This document shows, piece after piece, positions 42,210-45,178 of a stretch of 64,000 bases of DNA; position 1 is the first letter of the stretch; each line of letters starts with the position of its first letter. The stretch lies in NCBI RefSeq assembly GCF_003052165.1, contig NZ_CP024869.1, forward strand, positions 3,258,001 through 3,322,000, given 5' to 3'. The position numbers and the translations under genes are program-made. Under the pieces are notes generated by a model, which was not told the origin of the DNA, did no database searches, and saw only the letters and a list, made by a program, of their open reading frames with translations. Source of the DNA: Dietzia sp. JS16-p6b (lineage in GTDB: Bacteria > Actinomycetota > Actinomycetes > Mycobacteriales > Mycobacteriaceae).

Positions 42210-43549
42210 ACCGGACACGCCGGGATCCGGGTTCGGCCACCGGCCCGGGTGACGACCGAGTGCAGCGGCGGGTCGTGACGATCCTGGTCCTGGCGCAGCT
42301 GCTCTCCGGCGCGGGACTGGCCGCCGGGGTGACCGTCGGAGCGCTCCTCGCCGAGGACCTGCTCGGCGGGCCCGGCCTGTCCGGCCTGCCATCGGCGCTG
42401 TTCACCGGCGGGTCGGCCCTCGCGGCGATCGCCGTGGGCAGACTGTCCCAGGCGCGGGGCAGGCGCCCCGGGCTGGCGACGGGCTTCGCGTTCGGCGCCA
42501 TCGGAGCGATCGGCATCGTGGTCGCGACGGCCATCGACTCCCTCCCGCTGCTGTTCCTGTCGTTCGTCGTCTACGGCTCGGGCACCGCCACCAACCTCCA
42601 GGCGCGCTACGCCGGCGCGGACCTGGCCACCCCCGAGCACCGCGGACGGGCACTGTCATACGTGCTCCTGGGCACCACCGCGGGGGCCGTCGCGGGGCCC
42701 AACCTCGTGGGGCCGACGGGAGCGGTCGCCGAGTCGCTGGGCCTGCTCCCCTTGTCCGGACCGTTCCTCCTCGCCGCCGCGGCCTACGGTGGAGCGGCAC
42801 TGGTCATCTCACTGCTGCTGCGTCCCGATCCGCTGCTCGAGGCGCGGCGGCGGGCGACGGTGGGGCCGGACTCGGCGACAGCCTCGTCGTCGTTCCCGTC
42901 ACCGGCCCCCGCGGTCGTCTCCTCCCCCGAGCCGGCCGCACCCTCCCGCATCTGGACCGGGGACGTGCTCACCGGGGTGGCGGTGATGGCCCTGACGCAG
43001 TTCGTCATGGTCGGGCTCATGACCATGACACCGGTCCACATGCGCGCGCATGACCACGCGGTGACCGTGGTGGGGCTGGTGATCTCCCTTCACGTGGCGG
43101 CGATGTTCCTGCCCGCCCCGCTGTCCGGTTACCTGGTGGACAGGTTCGGCACGCGCCTCGTGGCCGTCTCGGCAGGCCTGGTGCTGCTGACCTCTGGCGT
43201 CCTCGCCGCGGTCTCCCCGCCGCAGTCGACCGTGCTGGTCACCACGGCCTTGATCCTCCTCGGGCTCGGATGGAGCCTCGGACTGGTCGCCGGGACCACG
43301 GTCCTCACCACGTCCGTGCCGCTCTCGGTCCGCGCCACCGTCCAGGGGCAGGCCGACGTGGCGGTGGCGCTGTCCGGTGCGGCGGGCGGCCTGCTCTCGG
43401 GCCTGGTGTTCGCGTGGATCGACTTCCGCGGCCTCGGCTTCGCACTCGCGGCGCTGTCGTTGATCGTCGTGGCCTCGGTGCGGCCGAGGCGTGCGTCACG
43501 CGGGGCACCTGAGACGGGAACCGCGCGGCCCTCATCGAAGGTCCGCTGA
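42206..43549 (+). CDS. MFS transporter
   Basis: The 447-residue protein has about 12 membrane segments in two halves joined by a long Pro/Ser/Ala-rich loop (residues about 215-250). The MFS loop motif GRLSQARGRRPGLATGFAFG lies after the second segment, and SGYLVDRFGTRLVAVSAG mirrors it in the second half. The cargo is unknown. The start ATG lies in the second copy of a 14-base repeat. It is probably co-transcribed with the methyltransferase and ends 5 bases from convergent ribM. Confidence 0.87.
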   Translation: MNRTRRDPGSATGPGDDRVQRRVVTILVLAQLLSGAGLAAGVTVGALLAEDLLGGPGLSGLPSALFTGGSALAAIAVGRLSQARGRRPGLATGFAFGAIGAIGIVVATAIDSLPLLFLSFVVYGSGTATNLQARYAGADLATPEHRGRALSYVLLGTTAGAVAGPNLVGPTGAVAESLGLLPLSGPFLLAAAAYGGAALVISLLLRPDPLLEARRRATVGPDSATASSSFPSPAPAVVSSPEPAAPSRIWTGDVLTGVAVMALTQFVMVGLMTMTPVHMRAHDHAVTVVGLVISLHVAAMFLPAPLSGYLVDRFGTRLVAVSAGLVLLTSGVLAAVSPPQSTVLVTTALILLGLGWSLGLVAGTTVLTTSVPLSVRATVQGQADVAVALSGAAGGLLSGLVFAWIDFRGLGFALAALSLIVVASVRPRRASRGAPETGTARPSSKVR

Positions 43550-43554
43550 CCGCG

Positions 43555-44274
43555 TCAGGCGACGGCCACCTGATCCGACCGATGCCCCTCAGAGGACTCC
43601 CGCACCCGGGCGGCCAGGTCGACGCGCCACCACACCACGAACCCCCAGACGACGAACGCCCCGTACACCAGGTACAAGGCCGCTGACGGGTAGTACCCGG
43701 CCTTGAGGAGCAATGGGACACCCACGATGTCGACGCCGATCCACAGCAGCCAGAACTCCGTCCAGCCCCGGGCCATGCCGTAGGTGGCCAGGATCGACCC
43801 GGTGAAGATCCACGCGTCCGCCCACGGGCCCCACGATCCGAGCTCGGAGAAGACCCACCCGAAGACCAGGGTGCCGGAGATCATCCCGACGACGAGTCCC
43901 GCCCGTTGCCGGCCCGTGGCCCAGTGCGGATGGACCGCGACCGCCTCGACTCCCGCCTGCCCCGGCAGAGCCGCGCTGGCCCGCCGGTCCCGCGACCAGC
44001 GCCACCAGCCGTAGATCCCCACGGCGAGGAACATGACCTGGCGGCCGGCCTGACCGTAGAGATCGACGTCCTGCGGGGTGTGGAAGACACCTCCGAGGAA
44101 GACCGTGAGAAGCGTGAGATTGCCGACGATCCCCACCGGCCAGGCCCATACCACTCGGCGCATCCCGCCGATCGCGGCGGCCAACCCGAAGACGTTGCCG
44201 ATGATCTCGCGCCACAGGATCGGTACTCCGCCGATCAACACCTGCGCGTCGAGGAATGAGACGAGAAGGCTCAT
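43555..44274 (-). CDS. ribM: riboflavin transporter RibM (PnuX), PnuC family
   Basis: The 239-residue protein has about seven membrane segments and the PnuC fold (WREIIGNVFGLAAAIGGMRRVVWAWPVGIVGNLTLL; YGWWRWSRD; WTEFWLLWIGVDIVGVPLLLKAGYYPSAALYLVY). On fold alone it would be called an NMN transporter. However, an FMN riboswitch precedes it, as for the riboflavin facilitator RibM/PnuX of corynebacteria and streptomycetes, so riboflavin uptake is the better call. AAAGGGG lies about 7 bases before the ATG. Expression should fall when FMN is plentiful. Confidence 0.88.
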   Translation of the reverse strand: MSLLVSFLDAQVLIGGVPILWREIIGNVFGLAAAIGGMRRVVWAWPVGIVGNLTLLTVFLGGVFHTPQDVDLYGQAGRQVMFLAVGIYGWWRWSRDRRASAALPGQAGVEAVAVHPHWATGRQRAGLVVGMISGTLVFGWVFSELGSWGPWADAWIFTGSILATYGMARGWTEFWLLWIGVDIVGVPLLLKAGYYPSAALYLVYGAFVVWGFVVWWRVDLAARVRESSEGHRSDQVAVA

Positions 44275-44373
44275 CGTGTGCCCCTTTCACGGGCTCGGCA
44301 CTCCACGGCCCAGGGCGTATGCCGCATCGCCCACGGTTCCACGGCCGAGCCGCGGTCCCTCGGGGGACACGCT

Positions 44374-44560
44374 GTTCTCTTCCATCCGGACTATGACCGT
44401 CGGCCCCGGGATCACACCGGGTCTGCTGACCCCCGCGAACGCGGTCCGGCCGGGCATGTCGCCTGGCCGCACCGCGTGTGCGGGGCGCTCGCGGGCTCGC
44501 CGCCGACCATGGGGCCGGTGACATCACCGCCGGTGGGGAATCTCACCCCGCCCTGAGAAC
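44374..44560 (-). promoter_or_regulatory. FMN riboswitch (RFN element) of ribM
   Basis: Read on the minus strand, the 187-base element begins and ends with the paired P1 stem GTTCTC/GAGAAC. Between them are the RFN hallmarks in order: GGGTGAGATTCCCCACCGG, CGGTGAT, GAGCCCGCGAGCG, CCGGTGTGATCCCGGGGCCG, ACGGTCATAGTCCGGATGG and AAGAGAA. These match the aptamer core that binds FMN. About 100 bases of expression platform (44275-44373) separate it from the ribM ATG; it has several GC-rich hairpin arms but no evident U tract, so control of translation start is likely. Confidence 0.93.
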
Positions 44561-44568
44561 GTGTTCCC

Positions 44569-44598
44569 GTTGTACTCCTCCCCGCTGCGACGCTGCAA
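44569..44598 (-). promoter_or_regulatory. probable promoter of the ribM leader
   Basis: On the minus strand TTGCAG (44593-44598) and TACAAC (44569-44574) are 18 bases apart, and the aptamer P1 stem begins 8 bases after the -10 box. The rest of the gap up to the Rieske gene (44599-44716) shows nothing else I can name. Confidence 0.45.
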
Positions 44599-44716
44599 CT
44601 CCGGCCGGCGTCGAGAAGGGCGTTCGGCGCGTCCTCACCCGGCCGATGGGGGCGGGACTCTCTTGCCGACGTGAGGTGGGCGCGGTCACCGGTGCCACCC
44701 CGGGCGGGGGCGTGGC

Positions 44717-45178
44717 TCAGCCGATCGTCAGTTGGCCGTTCGCCTCGGTCACCGGGACCACGTCGAGGGGTCGCGGTGCCGGAGCGAGGGTGTTGCGGCC
44801 GTCGGTGGCGTCGTACTCCGCGCCGTGGAGTGGGCAGCGCAGGTGCAGGTCGCGGACCACCTGAACGGTCCCACCCTGGTGGGTGCAGCGGGCGGAGTAC
44901 GCGACGAACTCCCCCTCGGTGGGCTGCGCGACGATCACCGTGGAGTCCCCCGACTTGACCTGCTTGGCGGTCCCGACGGGCACGTCCGACGCGGGCATGG
45001 TGCTGGCCTGCACCTCGGTCGTCTGCTGCACGGTCGAGGCAGGCTCCGCGGGTTGCGTCATCCCGCAGGCCGAGGCGATCCCCGGCAGCAGGATAATCCC
45101 GGGGAGAGCGGCCAGGACGGTACGGCGCTGCGTGCACGGTCCGACGGTGACGGATGCTGCGGCGGGGTGCTCGGTCAT
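44717..45178 (-). CDS. Rieske (2Fe-2S) domain protein, exported
   Basis: The 153-residue protein ends in a Rieske fold with both cluster motifs, CTHQGG and CPLHGAEYD, which supply two Cys and two His. The N-terminus has QRRTVLAALPGIILLPGIASAC, a twin-arginine-like signal followed by a lipobox-like Cys, so the protein is probably exported and perhaps lipid-anchored. Its electron partner is unknown. ATG 45178 was chosen; ATG 45187 adds three residues. It is divergent from the aminotransferase gene. Confidence 0.88.
   Translation of the reverse strand: MTEHPAAASVTVGPCTQRRTVLAALPGIILLPGIASACGMTQPAEPASTVQQTTEVQASTMPASDVPVGTAKQVKSGDSTVIVAQPTEGEFVAYSARCTHQGGTVQVVRDLHLRCPLHGAEYDATDGRNTLAPAPRPLDVVPVTEANGQLTIG

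Follow-up and report, generated by a model that had tools for sequence, protein, structure and literature searches.

Actinobacteria are already known to carry RibM (PnuX) riboflavin transporters under the control of flavin mononucleotide (FMN) riboswitches (PMC4418817, PMC3239331, PMC4510997), and pnuX/ribM is listed among FMN-riboswitch genes (PMC4418817). RibM of Corynebacterium glutamicum has a Km of 11 uM and is energy-independent (PMC3239331). In this species the FMN riboswitch lowers ribM expression in FMN-rich cells, Rho and RNase E/G take part, and riboflavin biosynthesis is apparently outside FMN riboswitch control (PMC4510997). RibM of Streptomyces davawensis is a riboflavin/roseoflavin facilitator under an FMN riboswitch (PMC3239331), and the specificity of PnuC-like transporters is described as predictable by riboswitch class (PMC7749635). 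Here we analysed a 64-kb stretch of the Dietzia sp. JS16-p6b genome (NZ_CP024869.1, positions 3,258,001 to 3,322,000 of the forward strand), hereafter the window, whose own coordinates are used throughout. It carries a stand-alone ribM (pnuX) gene whose leader contains a canonical FMN riboswitch, through which FMN very probably turns riboflavin uptake down; we infer the binding of FMN, the OFF direction and the transport. The elements on which this reading depends are as follows.

44370..44564, minus strand: FMN riboswitch aptamer (RFN element); RF00050, 83.9 bits against a gathering score of 66.2, complete model.
44555..44560, minus strand: 5' strand of the P1 stem, GUUCUC, from the Rfam alignment; invariant in 19/19 Dietzia leaders.
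44374..44379, minus strand: 3' strand of the P1 stem, GAGAAC, from the Rfam alignment; invariant in 19/19 Dietzia leaders.
43555..44274, minus strand: ribM (pnuX), 239 amino acids, probable riboflavin transporter of the Pnu family; PF04973 E 2e-47, RibM side of the tree, signature R78 / W155-I156-F157 / G159.

Scanning the entire window with cmscan against Rfam yielded a single gathering-score match, RF00050 at 44564-44370 on the minus strand (83.9 bits, E 1.3e-17, model positions 1-138, not truncated), and this was also the only FMN riboswitch match in the one-contig 3.72-Mb Dietzia genome. A preliminary description of this DNA, made from the sequence alone, had recognized the RFN core and a riboswitch on this strand, and the covariance-model search over the full model confirms it. 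The same description called P1 perfect: its ends at 44560 and 44374 are indeed the exact ends of the stem, which forms six consecutive Watson-Crick pairs (GUUCUC/GAGAAC), but the two outermost of the eight model pairs are unpaired here.

RF00050 exceeded its cut-off in 19 of the 23 genomes of the genus (14 of 15 among those with a completeness of 90% or more and a contamination of 5% or less), whilst PF04973 was found in 20 of the 23, with the riboswitch linkage kept in 19 of these 20. In all 19 RF00050-bearing genomes the aptamer ended 93-102 nucleotides (nt) ahead of the PF04973 gene, and because the match recurs across the genus, always ahead of the same gene, it is not a chance one. P1 was invariant across the 18 distinct leaders. 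In three other RF00050-free genomes (64-85% complete), PF04973 was also not found. The aptamer itself varies in length within Dietzia: a variable arm (approximately 44437-44479 in the window) occurs in two sizes among the 19 genomes, and the total aptamer length is 156 nt in five and 177-196 nt in 14.

The next same-strand gene after the aptamer (44274-43555, 239 codons) begins with an ATG 95 nt past the aptamer end, and its product matches PF04973, named NMN_transporter (NMN, nicotinamide mononucleotide), at 161.9 bits (E 2e-47, cut-off 27.3), the only PF04973 match in the 3.72-Mb genome. The closest named protein, with 95% identity, was that of D. natronolimnaea (entries for the genome analysed here may have been excluded from this comparison), Corynebacterium homologs were 60-71% identical in the best segment, and identity to Escherichia coli PnuC was 26%. 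The structure 4qtn, PnuC of Neisseria mucosa, was matched by a profile search (E 1.7e-15, the profile including E. coli PnuC); a direct Protein Data Bank search with the single window protein minus its first residue returned nothing at 0.001. The Pfam family name, together with similarity to the NCBIfam PnuC models, would favour an ordinary PnuC that imports nicotinamide riboside (NR) or NMN, with the FMN riboswitch there for another reason. The PnuC equivalog TIGR01528 scores the window protein at 40.7, narrowly under its cut-off of 42.45, whilst the homolog in Dietzia genome G022 passes at 49 and would be named PnuC by this model. The preliminary description had presented the locus as a reassignment of cargo; the Pfam label does read that way, but RibM/PnuX transporters were already known, and with TIGR01528 below its cut-off not every database misnames the gene.

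To compare the two transporter types at residue level, 147 PF04973 proteins were taken from fetched loci and, after 15 identical rows were dropped, 132 were compared in the numbering of the window protein; 'unlinked' here means that no over-cut-off riboswitch was seen in the fetched DNA or the genome search, where stricter filters may lose weak ones, and one locus so counted (L100) has only ~0.6 kb of upstream DNA. Arg78 was present in all 63 riboswitch-linked proteins (57 direct, six via a riboswitch at operon distance), and the 69 unlinked proteins divided into 33 with Leu78 and 36 with Arg78. Proteins with Arg78 had Ile156 (once Leu), Phe or Leu at 157 and Gly159, whereas those with Leu78 mostly had Thr156 (30/33), Thr157 (31/33) and Leu159 (30/33). 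The RibM set thus comprises Arg78, mostly Trp155, Ile156, Phe/Leu157 and Gly159, and the PnuC-type set Leu78, mostly Thr-Thr and mostly Leu; in a profile alignment, the 4qtn equivalents of positions 78 and 156 are Leu and Thr. A quick maximum-likelihood tree (IQ-TREE, 131 rows, one partial row omitted) placed the 33 Leu78 proteins, including E. coli PnuC, apart from a RibM side holding the window protein, on a branch with a Shimodaira-Hasegawa-like approximate likelihood ratio test (SH-aLRT) value of 100; the search was quick, some branches are long, that of E. coli PnuC above all, the classes are named by residue 78, itself a column of the tree, and the RibM proteins of C. glutamicum and S. 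davawensis themselves are not among the rows. A substitution of Asn by Asp in the motif WxxWxxxN was considered separately as a RibM marker and rejected, with Asp also present in 68 of the 69 unlinked proteins and Asn only in E. coli PnuC.

Riboflavin is the best-supported cargo of the window protein on this sequence evidence, because the riboswitch is real and the gene falls on the RibM/PnuX side by both phylogeny and residue signature. The cargo suggested in the preliminary description, for a gene otherwise annotated as an NMN transporter, is supported on the same two grounds. An ordinary PnuC appears extremely unlikely: the SH-aLRT 100 branch puts E. coli PnuC and the PnuC-type copies of actinobacteria on the far side from the window protein, residues 78, 156, 157 and 159 differ, and no NadR exceeded its cut-off in the genome (best 17 bits against 341.15; other NR kinases were not searched).

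A survey of 298 genomes of the order returned 103 over-cut-off FMN riboswitches in 100 genomes and 136 over-cut-off PF04973 matches in 105 (two of the matches being fragments in one genome); sub-threshold rows, five for the riboswitch and seven for PF04973, are not counted. For 55 of the 103 riboswitches, a same-strand PF04973 match followed within 6 kb (19 of these matches no more than 400 nt away and 36 at 1.8-2.0 kb), and 81 of the 136 PF04973 matches had no linked riboswitch. Of the 31 genomes with two PF04973 matches (in one case two fragments), 21 held one linked and one unlinked copy and none held two linked copies. In each of these 21 genomes, the linked copy carried Arg78, Ile-Phe or Ile-Leu and Gly, and the unlinked copy Leu78, Thr-Thr and Leu (once Ile); 18 of the 21 belong to one genus and so are not independent. 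The same pattern holds in one more genome, whose riboswitch is below threshold. From these sequences it is possible, though less likely than not, that a few residues tell actinobacterial RibM, the riboflavin carrier, from PnuC and may be a specificity switch that arose once after duplication, with cargo readable without the riboswitch. RibM and PnuC are described as difficult to tell apart by simple sequence inspection, and a tree splitting them has already been reported (PMC4418817); the split is known and only the residues could be new, our literature search on the signature being limited. If true, the signature would offer a simple test for homologs without a riboswitch.

In the Dietzia genome a single cluster holds ribD, ribE, ribBA and ribH, all of which exceed an NCBIfam cut-off, and a flavokinase was also found; with these genes present, Dietzia should make riboflavin itself. 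As the single FMN riboswitch match of the genome belongs to ribM, none of these genes has one of its own. At high intracellular FMN, the aptamer would close, P1 would form and ribM expression would be lowered; at low FMN, the 5' side of the aptamer would be free to pair with GCCCUGGG near the ribosome-binding site, and RibM would be made. RibM would act as a riboflavin facilitator, with entering riboflavin trapped as FMN and flavin adenine dinucleotide by flavokinase, and with the rib cluster riboswitch-free, feedback would be confined to uptake, in line with what is reported for C. glutamicum. The final step could be translational occlusion, Rho-dependent termination or mRNA decay by RNase.

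RibM might instead carry riboflavin mainly outward, or carry several flavins, so that the riboswitch would control flavin balance rather than uptake alone. RibM is energy-independent, its direction being set by the gradient, and S. davawensis RibM raised the riboflavin output of a Bacillus subtilis producer (PMC3239331); roseoflavin is also moved by RibM. Repression by FMN would nevertheless fit import and not export, and supplied riboflavin is reported to enter C. glutamicum through RibM (PMC4510997). We regard this alternative as very unlikely and retain regulated uptake of riboflavin as the preferred reading, for which the leader between aptamer and start codon provides the following candidate elements.

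44309..44316, minus strand: GCCCUGGG, platform element and candidate anti-P1/antisequestor; complement of CUCAGGGC in the 5' side of the aptamer, with a putative function.
44281..44287, minus strand: Shine-Dalgarno-like AAAGGGG, 6 nt before the ATG, read from the sequence; GGGG invariant in 19/19.
44267..44311, minus strand: predicted hairpin holding the Shine-Dalgarno region, start codon and codons 2-3 in the minimum-energy fold.

The stretch ahead of the start codon is strongly conserved across the genus, and GCCCUGGGC was found in 19 of 19 Dietzia leaders. In unconstrained folding, the platform GCCCU paired with the aptamer AGGGC at a mean probability of at least 0.69 in 18 of the 19 leaders, the exception being G006, where P1 wins over the anti-P1 pairing. 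With the anti-P1 pairing preferred in 18 of 19, only one of the two pairings could form at a time and it would take FMN binding to shift the balance to P1, and modelled folding supports such a competition. The hairpin around the Shine-Dalgarno region and AUG was the minimum-energy fold in all five leaders tried, of 19 available; its z-scores were -0.61 (window species), -2.02, -1.45, 0.05 and -1.23, of which only -2.02 clearly beats shuffled sequences, and in the centroid of L033 the hairpin is unpaired. In one locus (L091, from a metagenome-assembled genome labelled Sporichthyaceae bacterium), the aptamer 5' side is changed and the platform complements it perfectly over 11 nt, a match that five of 200 shuffles reached; this is a possible compensatory case for the anti-P1 pairing.

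Several results weigh against this account. P1 had a mean probability of 0.00 in the unconstrained ensemble of the window leader, so that the aptamer is not favoured by folding energy alone, and when P1 was enforced in the 19 leaders, neither AUG nor Shine-Dalgarno access changed consistently (unpaired AUG went from 0.52 to 0.50 in the window species, from 0.77 to 0.24 in G010 and from 0.00 to 0.43 in both G014 and G015). The OFF direction is taken from relatives for this reason. Complementarity between aptamer 5' side and platform was not significant against mononucleotide shuffles in most single sequences (L044: 44 of 200 shuffles as good; in this comparison the starts of nine short-leader Corynebacterium loci were set too far downstream by at least one codon, and their gaps are disregarded), no covariation was seen for the aptamer helices or hairpins because the genus sequences hardly vary, and no intrinsic terminator was found in 43500-44800. 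The one-contig genome G022 has ribM with no RF00050 match (98 first-look candidates, 89 scored), and the 36 unlinked proteins with Arg78 indicate, as far as sequence can tell, that RibM-side genes are not always FMN-regulated.

In addition to the preferred reading, the readout may be Rho-dependent termination and RNase E/G decay, as in C. glutamicum, rather than simple occlusion of the Shine-Dalgarno sequence, a real possibility that we place a little short of even. For C. glutamicum ribM, PMC4510997 cites Takemoto 2015 as reporting such a readout, and it is favoured by the lack of an intrinsic terminator in the interval searched and of a consistent change in ribosome-site access upon folding, whilst the Dietzia platform sequence is unlike those of Corynebacterium. 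In nine Corynebacterium loci (L059, L062, L065, L067, L071, L073, L075, L079 and L108), the ATG lies only 9 nt past the modelled aptamer end, with AGAGAAAGG at the P1 3' side; the arrangement suggests that P1 itself would cover the ribosome-binding site there, with no separate platform.

Among 65 named RibM loci, 38 had RF00050 in the fetched DNA (18/18, 13/17, 4/17 and 3/13 in successive batches) and 27 did not. In 19 of these 27 riboswitch-free loci (L078, L082, L089, L107 and 15 others), ribM lies directly behind a release-factor-3-like gene, and the frame with the release-factor-3 motif stops somewhere from 18 nt ahead of the estimated ribM start to 7 nt past it. Eighteen of the 19 are from Rhodococcus/Rhodococcoides, with the upstream gene recognized by a short motif only, and one is from Corynebacterium pelargi, where it is prfC over cut-off. 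The gene upstream of the riboswitch in the window is a neighbour rather than a part of the switch.

44717..45178, minus strand: Rieske [2Fe-2S] protein gene, upstream neighbour outside the switch; PF00355 E 1.4e-14.

Of 14 named Dietzia loci, 12 have a Rieske gene ahead of the riboswitch, the records of the remaining two ending too early to tell. In G022 (L036, C1:3346272-3349859), the GTG start of ribM overlaps the TGA stop of a Rieske gene, the same one that other Dietzia have ahead of the riboswitch. The simplest reading is that the riboswitch was lost and the upstream gene took over, with gain in other lineages as the alternative.

No paper on Dietzia ribM was among the literature matches listed, and the only listed match for 'Dietzia' concerns Gordonia. 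The locus strengthens the case for renaming such PF04973 genes, whilst itself changing no general picture. Its likeness to PnuC NR transporters (E. coli, N. mucosa 4qtn) lies in PF04973, with Leu78 and the other PnuC-class residues in PnuC set against the RibM signature in the window protein. The NAD+-II riboswitch (pnuC motif; NAD+, nicotinamide adenine dinucleotide) ahead of PnuC follows the same logic, a cofactor riboswitch acting on a Pnu transporter of the matching vitamin (PMC7749635), although RNA class and ligand differ from those of the FMN riboswitch. In S. davawensis, ribM lies inside the ribBMAH biosynthetic cluster, whereas in Dietzia it stands apart and the rib cluster is riboswitch-free. 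The likeness to C. glutamicum RibM and its FMN riboswitch would be uptake-only feedback on ribM, though in the Corynebacterium loci fetched (C. glutamicum itself not among them) the stretch from aptamer to start codon varies in sequence and length. Overall, the comparison indicates that in Dietzia, as in Corynebacterium, riboflavin uptake rather than synthesis is the target of FMN riboswitch feedback, and the locus is an ordinary example of the RibM/FMN-riboswitch pairing well known in related bacteria.
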